Virus record (IMG/VR): IMGVR_UViG_3300047321_000083
Location: 1 to 29,797 of that record
Reading direction: 5' to 3' (one strand)
Origin: a virus
DNA: 29,797 nucleotides
Shown here one piece after another: positions 11,811 through 29,797 of this stretch. The notes below the pieces were generated by a model that had not been told where the DNA came from, ran no database searches, and saw only the letters and a program-made list of their open reading frames with translations. Numbering within the stretch: position 1 is the first letter of the stretch; each line of letters opens with the position of its first letter. The position numbers were made by a program, and so were the translations under genes.

Positions 11811-12050
11811 GTGGCCAAGCTACGTACCTACGTCCACGTGAAGGACGACAAGGGTCAGACCCACGCGTTCGGCCCTGACGACGTCGTGCCCGACTGGGCA
11901 CAGGTGCTCATCACCAATCCGAAGGCGTGGAGCGAGCCGCCCACCGTGAAGCGACTTACGGAGCCCGCTCCGGCGAAGAAGACCGTCGCCAAGCGCACCC
12001 CAGCGCGACGTAAGGCAGGCGGTGGCGATGCTGCTGTTCACGACGGCTGA
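11811..12050 (+). CDS. Small head-associated protein, unknown function
   Basis: Starts at GTG 11811 and encodes 79 residues: an N-terminal compact part (MAKLRTYVHVKDDKGQTHAF, then DDVVPDWAQVLITNP) followed by a lysine/arginine/alanine-rich tail (PAPAKKTVAKRTPARRK). A short folded domain plus a basic tail is common in the gene after the major capsid protein of actinophages. DNA contact by the tail is only a guess. It overlaps the next gene by 29 nt. Confidence 0.7.
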   Translation: MAKLRTYVHVKDDKGQTHAFGPDDVVPDWAQVLITNPKAWSEPPTVKRLTEPAPAKKTVAKRTPARRKAGGGDAAVHDG

Positions 12051-25495: not shown

Positions 25496-27615
25496 CCATG
25501 CCCGCAGGAATCGCTACAGTCACGCTGACCGGTCGCTACATCCACCCTGACGGAGCCGCCCTGACGGGCAGCATCACCATTGCAGCACCTTCGCTCATCA
25601 CCCTGTCGGGCGCGGACACCATCACTGCCGGAGCCGTTACCGCCACCCTGAACGCGCAAGGCGCCTTCTCCGTAACGCTCGTGGCGACGGACAACGCGGC
25701 CATGCAGCCCACCGGGTGGGCCTACGACGTCACGGAGACGCTGAGCGGATTCCCTCCGCGGACTTATTCCATCGTCCTCCCGCAGGCAGTTCCCGCCGTG
25801 GACCTGGCGGACATCGCCCCCGCCAACCCCGCGGACGGTGACTACGTCCTCGTGGTCGGTCCGACGGGCCCGTCCGGGCGGACGATCCTGAACGGCACCG
25901 TCGCGCCAGCGGCGGGCGTAGGCGCCAACGGTGACTTCTACATCGACACCGTGGCCTGGAAGATCTACGGTCCGAAGGCGTCCGGCGCCTGGCCTGCCGG
26001 CTACTCGATCGGTGGCGGCGGAGGAGGCGTCATTGCCTCCGTCAACGGCAAGACGGGAACGGTCGTCCTTACCGCAGCCGACGTCAATGCTGACGCTTCT
26101 GGCGCAGCGTCGGCCGCACAGACCGCAGCCGTTGCCAGCGCTGCGACGTACACCGACAGCGCCGTTGCGACGGAGGCGAGCGCACGTGACGCCGCCGTTG
26201 TGTCGGAGGCGACCGCACGGATCAACGCGCTGGCGGCAGAAGTGACGCGCGCGGATGCTGCCTATGTCGGCACTGGTGACAGCCGGCTGACCGACGACCG
26301 CAACCCGACTTATCACGCCTCGTCGCACGCGGCTGGCGGCGTTGACCCTGTCTCTCCCGCGTCCATCGGAGCGGCGGCAGCGACGGACCTGACGACACTG
26401 GCGGGCAGGGTGACGGCCAATGAAGGCACGCTCGCGGCTCGCGCCCGCTACGCCATCCGGCGTGGAGGCATCGCGGACCCGGGAATGACCGACCTTCTGT
26501 ACTCCGGCTCCGCCCCGACGATCAGCACCACGCAGACGACTACGAGCACGATCGCGAGCGCCGTGAAGTACGCGCCTCCGCTGGTCACGCTGGCAGGTAC
26601 CGACGTCCGCGGGGATTTCCTGTGGTGCGGAGCGGCTGACTTCGCTATCGGCACCATCGCGCCGGATACGTCCTACGCACTGCCGACGTCGAAGACACCG
26701 CACCTGTACAGCTCGGGGCAGAGCGCGTGGGCGCTGGAGTTCACCACGGACGCCGACGCCTTCGAGATGCGTTTCAAGTACATCGCTGCGACGTCCATGT
26801 ACAAGCTGAGCATCGACGGGAGGCCGGTGACGGCCACTCCCGTCAGCCTTGGCGGTACGACCATCGGCTCCGGGCACATGTTGAAGGTCGCTTTCGGGTC
26901 GTCGGCAATGCGCCGGATCCGCCTGGACCTCTTCACCGTCCCCTTCGGCGGCATCTACATCGGCCCCACGTTCACGCTGTTCCGCCCTGTGACGGTCCGT
27001 GGACGCCTCATGGTGCTGGGCGACTCCATCACCGACGGAAGCGCGCAGAACTCTGGCCAGGGCGTCGGAACGTGGCTCTACCGGGCGGCTCGCATGCTCG
27101 GTGTGACTGACGTCTGGGACCAGGCACGGGGCGGCACCGGGTACATAACGCCGGGATCGTTCCAGGTCTTCGGCGACCGGCTGACGTCGGACATCGTGGC
27201 GTATGCGCCGGACGTCCTGATCATCAAGGGTGGATACAACGACAACGGCGGCTCTCAGTCGGCCATCGGGGCGGCAGCCGCGAGCCTGTACGCCGCAGCA
27301 CAGGCGGCGCTCCCGAACACGCAGATCATCGTAGTCGGGCCATGGGTGCCTACAGCGACGCCCGCGGGATCGCTCGTGACGACGGACAGCACCCTTGCGG
27401 CTGCCGCACTGGCTGCAGGTCTGCCGTTCGTCTCCTTCGTCACCGGCAACACCCTGAGCGGCACCGGTGTCGTTGTGAGCACTCAGACGCCACTTGTGAC
27501 GTCGGGCAACGTGGCCACGGTAGTGGGCGCCGACAATGTCCACCCCACGGACGCCGGCCACGCGCTGCTAGGTCGATGGATGGTGCGCGCACTGGCACCG
27601 ATCCTGCCGCTCTAA
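25492..27615 (+). CDS. Tail fibre protein with C-terminal SGNH/GDSL esterase domain
   Basis: A 707-residue protein, ATG 25492 after GGAGGTGA. The N-terminal 120 residues are a beta-rich phage-fibre domain (VTLTGRYIHPDGAALTGSIT), then a GPTGPSGRT turn, a fibre stretch SVNGKTGTVVLTAADVNAD, an alanine-rich trimeric coil (about 200-255) and a DDRNPTYHASSHAAGGVDPV segment typical of tail fibres. From about 500 an SGNH hydrolase follows: block I GDSITDGS with S512, block III GGYNDN with N583, and D681/H684 in ADNVHPTDAGH. It probably removes acetyl or other ester groups from cell-surface glycans during adsorption. It lies downstream of the lysis genes rather than inside the tail operon. Confidence 0.9.
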   Translation: MTMPAGIATVTLTGRYIHPDGAALTGSITIAAPSLITLSGADTITAGAVTATLNAQGAFSVTLVATDNAAMQPTGWAYDVTETLSGFPPRTYSIVLPQAVPAVDLADIAPANPADGDYVLVVGPTGPSGRTILNGTVAPAAGVGANGDFYIDTVAWKIYGPKASGAWPAGYSIGGGGGGVIASVNGKTGTVVLTAADVNADASGAASAAQTAAVASAATYTDSAVATEASARDAAVVSEATARINALAAEVTRADAAYVGTGDSRLTDDRNPTYHASSHAAGGVDPVSPASIGAAAATDLTTLAGRVTANEGTLAARARYAIRRGGIADPGMTDLLYSGSAPTISTTQTTTSTIASAVKYAPPLVTLAGTDVRGDFLWCGAADFAIGTIAPDTSYALPTSKTPHLYSSGQSAWALEFTTDADAFEMRFKYIAATSMYKLSIDGRPVTATPVSLGGTTIGSGHMLKVAFGSSAMRRIRLDLFTVPFGGIYIGPTFTLFRPVTVRGRLMVLGDSITDGSAQNSGQGVGTWLYRAARMLGVTDVWDQARGGTGYITPGSFQVFGDRLTSDIVAYAPDVLIIKGGYNDNGGSQSAIGAAAASLYAAAQAALPNTQIIVVGPWVPTATPAGSLVTTDSTLAAAALAAGLPFVSFVTGNTLSGTGVVVSTQTPLVTSGNVATVVGADNVHPTDAGHALLGRWMVRALAPILPL

Positions 27616-27702
27616 CGTAAAAGATCTACGAAGTCCCGCATCACATTTTCGCTCCAGCGCCCCATTACCCAATCGACATAGTCGAGTAGGGGAGAGGACG
27701 CC

Positions 27703-28344
27703 ATGGGGAACATCGGCATCATCGGACGGGCTCGCGTCGGCAAGGACACCGCCGGCGCGTGGCTCGTCGACAACCGCGGATACCGACGGATCGGGTTCGC
27801 TGACGCGCTGAAGGATGCGGCGCTGACGCTGGATCCGATCGTCGGCTACAGGCAAGACGAGGTCTGGGACATCGTCTACGGCGAGTGGGAGCTGGTACGC
27901 ACAGACACGGACCAGGTGCGCCTGTCCGCGGCCGTCGCTGACATCGGCTGGGAGCGCGCCAAGGACGAGTACCCCGAAGTCCGCCGCACCCTCCAGGAAC
28001 TGGGCATGGCCATTCGCGCCATCGACTCCGAGTTCTGGCTCCGCGCAGCCCTGGCGAAGGTGACGGAGACGAACGAGGCCGGCGTAGCTGCGGTCATCAC
28101 TGACGTCCGCTTCCCCAACGAGGCGGACCGCCTCCGTCGCGCTGGCTTCCACCTCGTCTACATCGACCGCCCCGGAGTGCCGCAGCTGGACCACGCGTCG
28201 GAAGGCGCCCTGACGGCGGAGGATGCGGACTACATCGTCAGGAACACCAGTGACCTGACGACCTTCGTCGGGAAGGTGGAAGTGGTCGCCAACCGCATCA
28301 CCGACATCGAGTCCCGTCGGCACTACGCACGGGCGCTCTCCTAA
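27703..28344 (+). CDS. Deoxynucleoside monophosphate kinase
   Basis: A 213-residue P-loop kinase. The N-terminus MGNIGIIGRARVGKDTAGAW carries the Walker A loop G8-RARVGKDT, followed by GFADALKDAALTLDPI, the substrate-binding region. LQELGMAIRAIDSEFW and VITDVRFPNEADRLR (lid/acceptor region) are classic in phage dNMP kinases such as T4 gene 1-like proteins. It would phosphorylate dNMPs to dNDPs for phage DNA synthesis in the cytoplasm. GGGGAGAGGA precedes ATG 27703 after an 87-bp gap that may hold a promoter. It overlaps the next gene as TAATG. Confidence 0.92.
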   Translation: MGNIGIIGRARVGKDTAGAWLVDNRGYRRIGFADALKDAALTLDPIVGYRQDEVWDIVYGEWELVRTDTDQVRLSAAVADIGWERAKDEYPEVRRTLQELGMAIRAIDSEFWLRAALAKVTETNEAGVAAVITDVRFPNEADRLRRAGFHLVYIDRPGVPQLDHASEGALTAEDADYIVRNTSDLTTFVGKVEVVANRITDIESRRHYARALS

Positions 28345-28583
28345 TGGAGTGGGCCGATTGCGGTTGCTGCTGGCCACAGAAGCCAAAGGTCCGGAAGGCC
28401 GCTGACTGGCTGATCCTTGGCAGCCCCGGAGAGCCTGACGAGCCTGTGACGCCGTTCTGGTACGTCGAGATCGGCGGATGGCCGCAGGGTCATTTCGACA
28501 GCTGGGACAGCGCACTTCGCGCGGCAGGCCGGTACCTGCGTGACGAGGACTATGCGTGGCGCCTGGACCCCGACGTCACGTGA
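28344..28583 (+). CDS. Hypothetical protein, aromatic and cysteine-rich (79 aa)
   Basis: ATG 28344 overlaps the kinase stop by one base (TAATG). The product begins MEWADCGCCWPQKPKVRKAA and ends GRYLRDEDYAWRLDPDVT, with a WYVEIGGWPQGHFDSWDSAL core, suggesting a small compact fold. The C-x-C-C start could hold metal. No family is recognised. Coupling to the kinase suggests co-expression in late lytic growth. Confidence 0.65.
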   Translation: MEWADCGCCWPQKPKVRKAADWLILGSPGEPDEPVTPFWYVEIGGWPQGHFDSWDSALRAAGRYLRDEDYAWRLDPDVT

Positions 28584-28603
28584 CCATCAACCGAAAGGCA
28601 TTT

Positions 28604-28852
28604 ATGCGAAAGATCCTGGACTACCTGAACACCCTCACACTCCGCGCCTACGTGGCGCTGCAGGTCTTCGCCCACACCGAGCCCGTGCGGCTCCGGGCGG
28701 CGCTCCTGTCGGCCGTCGCGTTCGCCTCGTTCACCATCCCCGCCCTGGCGGACGCCGACGTCGCACAGTCCGTCGCCAGTATCGCAACCGTGGCCCTCCC
28801 GATTCTCGTCGGCGAGAGCACACGCTCGAAGGTGTCGCCGACCGCCAAGTGA
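28604..28852 (+). CDS. Two-helix membrane protein, holin candidate
   Basis: An 82-residue protein from ATG 28604 (AAAGG about 8 nt upstream; a GTG at 28580 in frame overlaps the previous stop and is an alternative start). It is predicted to have two membrane segments: LRAALLSAVAFASFTIPALA (about 30-49) and VAQSVASIATVALPILVGES (about 54-73), with a basic start MRKILDYLNTLTLRAYVALQ and a short polar tail. Small size, two spans and a charged C-terminal tail fit a class II holin. It is separated from the endolysin by four genes, which is unusual, so the role is inferred. Confidence 0.6.
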   Translation: MRKILDYLNTLTLRAYVALQVFAHTEPVRLRAALLSAVAFASFTIPALADADVAQSVASIATVALPILVGESTRSKVSPTAK

Positions 28853-28884
28853 ACGGCGCCGTACCTTAAGCGCACCTTAGCTTT

Positions 28885-28949
28885 AGGCAAAACTTTGCCT
28901 CGCAGACAAGGCCCCGTACCCGCCGTAACAGGCAGGTGCGGGGCCTTTT
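28885..28949 (+). terminator. Tandem hairpins with a Rho-independent terminator
   Basis: AGGCAAA (28885-28891) can pair with TTTGCCT (28894-28900); then AAGGCCCCG (28908-28916) pairs with CGGGGCCTT (28939-28947), followed by TT and part of a T-rich run. It closes the lysis/accessory operon. Confidence 0.8.
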
Positions 28950-28997
28950 GCGTTTCTGGGGCTGCGTGAAGCGACTCACGGAGCCATACAACTATCA

Positions 28998-29027
28998 TTG
29001 TGTTGCGCGACATATGCAAGGTACATT
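28998..29027 (+). promoter_or_regulatory. Candidate promoter of the SprT-like gene
   Basis: TTGTGT (28998-29003) and TACATT (29022-29027) are 18 nt apart, a plausible -35/-10 pair of the TTGNNN/TANNNT type. The expected start of transcription falls at about 29034-29035, on the ATG itself. The near-palindrome TGTTGCGCGACA (29001-29012) overlaps the spacer and could be an operator. Confidence 0.4.
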
Positions 29028-29034
29028 CGCCGAC

Positions 29035-29661
29035 ATGTCGACCTCACCCGGACCACTACTACAGGCCCTGGACGGCCTGTGGGACCGCCTTCGATCACAC
29101 ACCCCGGAGCTGCCTCCTGCGCGCATAGCGATCTCTCCGCTACCCCCATCACCTAAACACGGCTGGGAGCGGTGGGAGCGGGAAGGCGGGGTCGTGACGG
29201 GCCTCGTCGTCAGTGCTGAAACCCTGACGGCCGGCGCGGATGCCACCTTGGAGTACGTCCTCCACGAGGCCGCGCACGTGCTCTGCTGGACCCGCGAAGT
29301 CACGGAAACCGCGACCTACGGCGTCTACCACAACGCTGTGTACCTGGAGGCTGCGGGGGAAGTGGGGCTGATCTGGCCTCCCGCCCAATCTCGCGACGCT
29401 AGGAAGGGCTACGCGTCGCCAGTGCTCACGGGGGCGTCGAAGGTCCGATACGCCGACGACGTGGACGCGCTGGAGGCGGCCATCCCGCTCATCCTGCCGC
29501 ACCTGACCGTCCCCGAAGCCCCGACGAGGAAGCGGCCGGCAAACCGGCTTTACCTCCAGTGCCAGTGTGCCGAGCCACGCCGGATCCAGATCTCCCCGAC
29601 CGTGGCAGCGAAAGGGCCTGTGATCTGTGGGGTATGTGAGAAGCCGTTCACGGAGCAGTGA
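29035..29661 (+). CDS. SprT-like zinc metalloprotease with C-terminal zinc ribbon
   Basis: A 208-residue protein. TLEYVLHEAAHVLCW (71-85) contains the HExxH zinc motif H77-E78-x-x-H81, and GVYHNAVYLEAAGEVGL (about 96-111) supplies a third histidine (H99) in the way of SprT/Spartan-type proteases. The end has a C176-x-C178 ... C198-x2-C201 zinc ribbon (LYLQCQCAEP, PVICGVCEKPF). SprT relatives act on DNA-protein crosslinks or are uncharacterised; in this phage the substrate is unknown. No ribosome-binding site precedes ATG 29035, and a candidate promoter predicts a leaderless mRNA. In-frame ATGs at 29014 and 28936 are alternatives. The gene begins a unit after a strong terminator. Confidence 0.75.
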   Translation: MSTSPGPLLQALDGLWDRLRSHTPELPPARIAISPLPPSPKHGWERWEREGGVVTGLVVSAETLTAGADATLEYVLHEAAHVLCWTREVTETATYGVYHNAVYLEAAGEVGLIWPPAQSRDARKGYASPVLTGASKVRYADDVDALEAAIPLILPHLTVPEAPTRKRPANRLYLQCQCAEPRRIQISPTVAAKGPVICGVCEKPFTEQ

Positions 29662-29742
29662 CCGTGGTGAGGTATCCTCTCGCCCATGTCAGTGCCTTAC
29701 GGTAGGCTGACGGCGCCCGTAGCTTTGTGTCGCTGAGAGGTC

Positions 29743-29797
29743 ATGATGAGTTCCAGAGAGCTAGCCCACCCCGGCAAGGCGGGCACCCCTGTATCCG
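29743..29797 (+). CDS. Start of an unidentified gene (cut by window end)
   Basis: GAGAGG (29735-29740) is followed by two adjacent ATG codons at 29743 and 29746; the second has the better spacing. The frame stays open to the window edge with MSSRELAHPGKAGTPVS visible. The 81-bp gap upstream may hold a promoter (TAGGCT at 29703-29708 is a possible -10). Too little is present to name a family. Confidence 0.5.
   Translation, partial: MMSSRELAHPGKAGTPVS

Follow-up and report, generated by a model that had tools for sequence, protein, structure and literature searches.

A predicted leaderless SprT-like gene with a dispersed operator-like site, next to a putative immunity repressor gene, in Samy-like Streptomyces phages

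The window, by which we mean the whole stretch of DNA analysed here, is a 29,797-base IMG/VR virus record, and the gene under study lies near its 3′ end. PHROGs matches in the window include terminase, portal, major head, tape measure and deoxynucleoside monophosphate (dNMP) kinase genes. To judge from these marker genes and a gene order similar to that of phage Samy, the window is a Samy-like temperate Streptomyces siphophage. The kinase gene (27,703–28,344; phrog_139, E = 6.4e-41) stands near the end of the late module, and a kinase gene precedes the corresponding region in Samy and phiC31 as well. Downstream of it, and like it on the plus strand, follow an intrinsic-terminator-like hairpin ending in TTTT (28,908–28,947), a palindrome that we call site A (CGTGAAGCGACTCACG, 28,965–28,980), a −35-like TTGTGT (28,998–29,003), a second palindrome, B (TGTGTTGCGCGACATA, 28,999–29,014), lying over the −35 and the spacer, a −10-like TACATT (29,022–29,027) and the gene for an SprT-like zinc protein of 208 amino acids (29,035–29,661). 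Behind the SprT-like gene lie a further element, C (AGTGCCTTACGGTA, 29,691–29,704), and the start of the next gene (MMSSRELAHP..., 29,743–29,797), which runs for about 18 codons before the contig ends. Elsewhere in the window we noted a tRNA-Arg(acg) (899–974) and a tRNA-Pro(tgg) (1138–1214) and, by eye, a tRNA-like 3′ part between them at about 1080–1135.

The SprT-like protein carries HEAAH at residues 77–81 (H77, E78, H81), a distal third histidine (H99), E109 and four cysteines (C176, C178, C198 and C201); H77 and E78 stand at the positions given in an earlier, sequence-only reading of this DNA. An HExxH motif with a distal third histidine is characteristic of the SprT-like family, and the three histidines, together with E109, are invariant in all of the 47 homologs that we aligned, 41 of them from the locus set described below and 6 from annotated phages and plasmids. 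The cysteines, which would form a C-terminal zinc ribbon, are all present in 46 of the 47, the window protein included. In PHROGs the protein matched phrog_6361 (E = 4.5e-12), the family also noted for Samy SAMYPH_31, which is annotated as a putative DNA-dependent metalloprotease. In Pfam, the window protein matched no family at E ≤ 1. At the same threshold PF10263 matched 15 of the 16 members of a homolog alignment (best E = 1.3e-4) and Zn_ribbon_SprT matched only two of them (best E = 0.073), and no ImmA/IrrE profile was found for the window protein or among the four families matched by any of the 16. A PDB sequence search with the 16-member profile returned a single irrelevant match (E = 2). 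The AlphaFold model of the protein (pLDDT 87.7) had no Foldseek match at E ≤ 0.001, and a second look with VIA placed SPRTN (6mdw; Z = 6.7, rmsd 3.7, 101 aligned) level with BepA (also 6.7), with ArdC (Z = 3.2) and PprI (Z = 2.5) lower in the list. The SprT-like assignment made from the sequence alone is thus backed by the HEAAH motif, the profile matches of the relatives and a compatible fold, and we treat the product as SprT-like on these grounds and its protease activity as putative.

The locus set comprised database loci, Samy and the window, giving 47 loci that reduced to 42 distinct proteins after five identical-protein loci were merged; the partial matches L081 and L082 were left out. 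Thirty-six proteins starting with M[PS]TSPG, including that of the window, are referred to here as close relatives, and near-duplicates such as L015 as well as the frame-disrupted L076 were kept among them. The disrupted sprT occurs in one prophage record (L010/L076), and an intact relative with an identical upstream region is present in L015.

While the zinc ligands are fixed, position 78 varies: 27 of the 47 homologs have E there, 17 have D, two have Q and one has V, and among 35 close relatives (one further relative was not scored) it is D in 17, E in 16, with the window among these, and Q in 2. The protein tree of the close relatives requires five changes at this position. The zinc site is therefore, as far as the alignment tells, more strongly constrained than the catalytic residue. 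As the general base in such enzymes Asp is poor and Gln is usually dead. Because 19 of the 35 close relatives carry Asp or Gln instead of the catalytic Glu while their zinc ligands are unchanged, protease activity is unsafe as a family-wide claim. For the same reason, the role suggested in the sequence-only reading, acting on DNA–protein crosslinks or clearing bound host proteins, is weakened as a claim about the family and is best called conceivable. The pattern might also mean that the gene encodes a zinc-stabilised DNA-binding or regulatory protein, with protease activity not its conserved job. The constancy of the histidines, E109 and the cysteines beside a position that changed repeatedly would fit such a protein, but nearly half of the scored close relatives retain the Glu and an Asp could still serve as a weak base, and we regard this reading as unlikely.

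The strong terminator that had been proposed ahead of the gene is borne out by RNA folding: the hairpin has a predicted energy of −33.7 kcal/mol (z = −4.73), and none of 200 shuffled sequences folded as well. A simple terminator scan was silent on it. Since generic sigma-70 and terminator scans of positions 27,500–29,797 called nothing, conservation and RNA folding were used in their place, and the promoter must be considered weak by consensus alone. Its elements are nevertheless as first described, with TTGTGT separated by an 18-nt spacer from TACATT, which ends 7 nt before the ATG at 29,035. A transcript starting 7 nt past the −10 would therefore begin at the A of this ATG. A ribosome-binding site is indeed missing, the best anti-Shine–Dalgarno (SD) match within −20 to −4 being 4 nt (AGGT).

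Comparison among the close relatives supports a leaderless promoter. In 35 of the 36, the conserved ATG has a TANNNT hexamer ahead of it at a distance of 6 or 7 nt, the exception being L013 with CACAGT at this place, whereas the rate of such hexamers at random Samy positions is 0.0018. Only two of 93 annotated plus-strand coding sequences of Samy have TANNNT at that distance, the SprT-like gene and the integrase gene. The hexamer itself varies (TATACT, TACATT, TACCGT, TACAGT, TAGATT, TACGCT, TACCCT and others), while its place is fixed. SD matches within −20 to −4 reach at least 5 nt in none of the 36; 22 have no match of at least 3 nt, seven have 3 nt and seven have 4 nt, as against 81 of the 93 Samy plus-strand coding sequences with a match of 4–7 nt. 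The 35 cases are not independent, since related sequences share ancestry, but the conservation of the −10 geometry across the close relatives places it beyond chance. Leaderless mRNAs are common in Streptomyces; in S. coelicolor they make up 21% of the primary start sites (PMC4895711), so the feature is supported without being exotic. The literature that we searched describes neither a leaderless sprT in Samy-like phages nor the sites reported below. We also noted that the Samy integrase gene (at 56,925) has TATCAT 6 nt before its start and an SD match of only 3 nt, and is possibly leaderless too.

Site A is a 16-bp palindrome between the terminator and the promoter, centred 62 bp upstream of the ATG in the window. 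It and palindrome B were first spotted by comparing upstream regions by eye, and its consensus is approximately CGTRAGNCGNCTYACG. A site with at most two mismatches to the degenerate pattern lies near the gene in 33 of the 36 close relatives, compared with a fraction of 0.0405 of shuffled stretches; with at most one mismatch, the numbers are 29 of 36 and 0.0040. Beyond the locus, scans allowing up to three mismatches found the site in all seven relatives' records. Six of these gave 9–17 forward matches against 0–6 for a reversed-pattern control, and the shorter record G004 gave 4 against 2. At a matrix score of at least 10 there are 12 copies in G001, 16 in G002, 11 in G007, 12 in G003, 10 in G006 and 13 in Samy, while three shuffles of each record averaged no more than 0.67; the counts for G001, G002, G007, G003 and G006 are partly circular because the matrix was trained on those five, while Samy and the window lay outside the training. 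The window has two copies, the one at 28,965 (score 19.3) and a second, CGTGAAGCGACTTACG, at 11,945–11,960 (score 16.4) within the ORF at 11,811–12,050. Both scores are far above the threshold, although the number alone, against a shuffle mean of 0.33–0.67, is not decisive. By eye, the copy at 11,945 resembles copies of relatives with similar downstream sequence, such as G001 13,717 and G003 34,792. Eight of the 13 Samy copies lie wholly between annotated genes, three overlap a gene end or start and two are inside genes. The Samy copies are asymmetric, and the site was not picked up when Samy was searched de novo for palindromes. Site A thus belongs to a dispersed family and is a candidate repressor operator or stoperator.

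The distance from the centre of site A to the ATG, available for 33 close relatives, falls into clusters of 49–52 (8 cases), 60–64 (21) and 72–73 (2), with single cases at 68 and 90. The clusters are about one helical turn apart, and at least seven changes between them are required on the protein tree. This spacing suggests a constraint on the side from which site A faces the promoter, such as a bound repressor or activator acting there would impose. A fitted period of 10.5 bp was not singled out (R increased steadily in the fit, being 0.54 at 9.5 and 0.71 at 12), and we accordingly speak of three clusters. Positions of −50, −62 and −73 are also used by activators, so that the control could be of either sign.

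The near-palindrome over the spacer that the sequence-only reading had pointed to fared less evenly. It is present, covers the −35 as well as the spacer and recurs in phage promoters, but it is clear in only part of the family. As a family-wide operator it was rejected: at least six of its eight base pairs are kept in 10 of 35 close relatives against 13% of shuffles, so B is retained for the window's part of the family; some relatives have it repeated and in perfect or nearly perfect form. In relatives, it takes part in a recurrent layout. Site A followed by B, 22–35 bp from start to start, occurs at three places in G001, four in G002, three in G007, four in G003 and four in G006; the sprT promoter is one of these in each genome, leaving two or three further places each. 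Samy has TTGTGTGGTCGACATAAC behind four additional A sites, seen by eye and missed by the B pattern. In the other A–B promoters, TTGTGT precedes a CATAGT-like hexamer by about 17–18 nt; most of them, judged by eye, are followed by a leader that has an SD and a further half A site. Because the layout recurs, the sprT promoter appears to be a member of a phage promoter family and its leaderless copy; in Samy its −35 spacing differs (15 nt, by eye). Tandem B-like palindromes 29 bp apart were also seen, at 48,364/48,393 in G001 and at 43,928/43,957 in Samy; the Samy pair lies in the gap that follows the gene for DNA polymerase. These pairs are perhaps the control region of a gene for a B-binding protein.

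In all 32 readable close relatives, the SprT-like gene is followed by a SAMYPH_32 homolog (E ≤ 3e-35 to the Samy protein), a number that excludes Samy itself, the window and L073, which end too early, and L076, which was skipped. Beyond these, a SAMYPH_32 homolog also comes next in L077 and L078; L072, L079 and L080 have something else there and L083 has no ORF. In the window, the next gene is assigned as the candidate immunity repressor by its position and an N-terminal likeness seen by eye. SAMYPH_32 is described in the text of PMC11302927 as a putative immunity repressor that is highly expressed in all conditions tested. Its sequence matched no PHROGs family at 1e-3 and no Pfam family above the cut-off, and its model (pLDDT 83.2) is mostly helical, with structure matches to common helical arrangements, none recognised as DNA-binding. 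The repressor function of the next gene is thus putative. A half site of A, YTYRCGSTA, lies within 90 nt downstream of the sprT stop codon in 30 of 35 close relatives, compared with 0.66% of shuffles, and abuts a −10-like sequence; element C of the window follows this pattern.

A tblastn search with the Samy putative repressor also found relatives in phage records of Arthrobacter (75, among them Lego, YesChef and Liebe) and Microbacterium (5). These matches cover about a third of the length of the Samy repressor, are annotated as "hypothetical protein" and, in the two that were viewed, lie between kinase and exonuclease genes. Since the available text of PMC8758107 reports that Cluster AZ phages, including Lego and YesChef, show immunity without an identifiable repressor, the repressor-like genes of the Arthrobacter phages are candidate repressors. 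Liebe (L084) contains eight exact copies of CCTGGCCATCTTC (20,535, 22,025, 24,533, 25,485, 27,700, 39,055, 42,329 and 42,999), six of which lie 49–57 bp before an annotated gene start; the repeat is stoperator-like. In phiAAU2 (Y11761.1, L085), a Samy-repressor-like stretch at 443–649 in the ORF II frame overlaps the start of ald ("Aborting Lytic Development"), a gene read in a different frame.

The closest known counterpart of the locus is in Samy (OR263580.1). SAMYPH_31 is homologous to the window gene (50.7% identity of the products), lies directly before the putative repressor gene SAMYPH_32, and has the same leaderless −10 geometry (TATACT, 7 nt) and a site A 64 bp upstream. It differs in having HDAAH instead of HEAAH and the asymmetric form of site A, CGTAAAACGACTCACG. 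The words leaderless, SprT and metalloprotease are absent from the main text of PMC11302927. At the protein level, the SPRTN/SprT family (PF10263, 6mdw) shares with the window protein the HExxH motif, third histidine and zinc ribbon, and SPRTN shares the top score in the VIA comparison; the window protein, however, is itself without a Pfam match, and its phage family often has Asp or Gln in place of the Glu.

phiC31 resembles the window's group in having palindromic sites throughout the genome and a repressor gene between the late and early regions. In phiC31, our de novo search found CCTACTCACGTGAGTAGG or a close variant of it at 15 dispersed places, including one between gp52 and the repressor gene and another within the repressor gene; we take this repeat to be the binding site of the repressor. 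The hexamer CTCACG/CGTGAG is common to the phiC31 repeat and site A, but its arrangement in phiC31 is the opposite one. In addition, the kinase and repressor genes of phiC31 have no SprT gene between them, and the Samy-type repressor shows only weak likeness to the phiC31 c protein (E = 0.11 at best). The likeness to R4 is by description, through the repressor–stoperator system with dispersed sites reported for R4-type phages in the accessible portion of PMC10276819. Site A is likewise repeated across the genomes of the relatives, the window fragment holding its two copies. On this sequence-level comparison, the SprT-like gene is a predicted leaderless, operator-flanked neighbour of a phiC31/R4-like immunity system. 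A metalloprotease gene beside the repressor gene of an element is also known from ImmA/ImmR (ICEBs1, TnSmu1), and the SprT-like gene stands in this position, next to a putative repressor gene, in all of the readable close relatives. Unlike ImmA, however, the window protein lacks an ImmA/IrrE family match and has a zinc ribbon and an SprT-type third histidine; in the VIA fold comparison its model gave Z = 2.5 with PprI and 6.7 with SPRTN.

Because a dispersed operator-like site lies upstream and a repressor homolog comes next, we take repressor control as the main story. With moderate confidence, we favour the view that this is an immunity-region gene under repressor control, expressed early in lytic growth, whose product acts on DNA-bound proteins. 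The SprT-like gene would be the first transcription unit after the late operon, within the immunity region and separated from late transcription by the strong terminator, and its own promoter would start the mRNA at the ATG, giving translation without a leader. The candidate immunity repressor would probably bind site A upstream of the sprT promoter and the half site in its own promoter, so that the gene would be kept repressed in the lysogen and be expressed upon infection or induction. The SprT-like zinc-ribbon protein, with HExxH intact in the window phage, would then most likely cut or bind proteins sitting on DNA during early lytic growth. In one of four plasmid loci viewed, out of 60 matched records, an SprT-like homolog lies just before a relaxase gene: in a Streptomyces longwoodensis plasmid (L045, 3959–4852), it is the last annotated gene before that gene. 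Relaxases form covalent DNA adducts, and this neighbourhood gives circumstantial support to the DNA–protein theme. Mycobacteriophage LHTSCC gp83, SprT-like by its listing, is toxic, bactericidal and filament-forming on expression, as given in the accessible part of PMC7474061.

The same arrangement could instead serve lysogeny, if a repressor sitting at A, and facing the same side of the helix as RNA polymerase, activated the leaderless promoter and the protein served the lysogen in the manner of a moron. The stepwise A-to-ATG distances, with their seven tree changes, would suit this idea, as would a separate promoter behind a terminator and the absence of the gene from the corresponding place in phiC31 and Liebe. 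However, the distances of 68 and 90, two of the 33, do not fit these steps, the A–B layout also precedes other genes, and A sites in or beside structural genes, such as Samy 8,367 and 10,598, fit roadblocks better than activation. The text of PMC11302927 is silent on SAMYPH_31 expression in the lysogen. An activated lysogeny gene is accordingly a doubtful reading.

A further alternative is that the SprT-like protein acts as an anti-repressor: it would cut the repressor of its own phage, and the two would make up a mutual switch comparable to ImmA/ImmR but built on an SprT-type protease. The invariable adjacency of the two genes in the readable close relatives and the placement of A at the sprT promoter, with the half site before the repressor gene, would be expected of such a switch. 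According to PMC11302927, neither mitomycin C nor ciprofloxacin induced Samy, which leaves room for such a route of repressor inactivation, and PMC10233336 provides ImmR/ImmA metalloprotease pairs as a precedent. Against this, the frequent loss of the catalytic Glu speaks against a universal protease role, homologs occur in 60 records of a plasmid collection that yielded no relative of this repressor at E = 1e-3, one plasmid homolog is instead beside a relaxase gene, and phiC31 and the Arthrobacter phage Liebe keep the kinase–repressor order with no SprT gene between. We consider cleavage of the repressor quite improbable. The wider proposal, that anti-repressors of SprT type rather than ImmA type operate across this actinobacterial temperate phage group, with phased operators, destruction of the DNA-bound repressor and SOS-independent induction, strikes us as more doubtful still.

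Finally, ordinary leadered transcription from an unseen upstream promoter, or a non-ATG start with an SD, is very unlikely: Samy, L016, L020 and L063 do have an in-frame GTG at −30 behind a GGGAGG/GAGAGG-like stretch, L075 has a GTG behind CGGAGG and the generic scan sees no promoter, but 9 of the 36 close relatives have no in-frame ATG, GTG or TTG upstream before a stop codon and conservation of the protein begins at MPTSPG/MSTSPG. A GTG start is thus a small rival for those five loci and not for the window. In-frame upstream ATGs occur in 10 of the 36, the window's being at 29,014; starts at this ATG or at GTG 28,936 were ruled out, having neither SD nor conservation.

What had been an isolated annotation becomes a testable regulatory module consisting of a candidate operator, a predicted leaderless SprT-like gene, a half site and a putative repressor. 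The natural exchange of Glu for Asp or Gln in half of the close relatives makes these a ready set in which to ask whether SprT-like proteins depend on protease activity. Should the repressor control a protease for DNA-bound proteins, crosslink proteases would be linked to the lysis–lysogeny decision, and to the induction of Samy-like prophages without an evident SOS signal.
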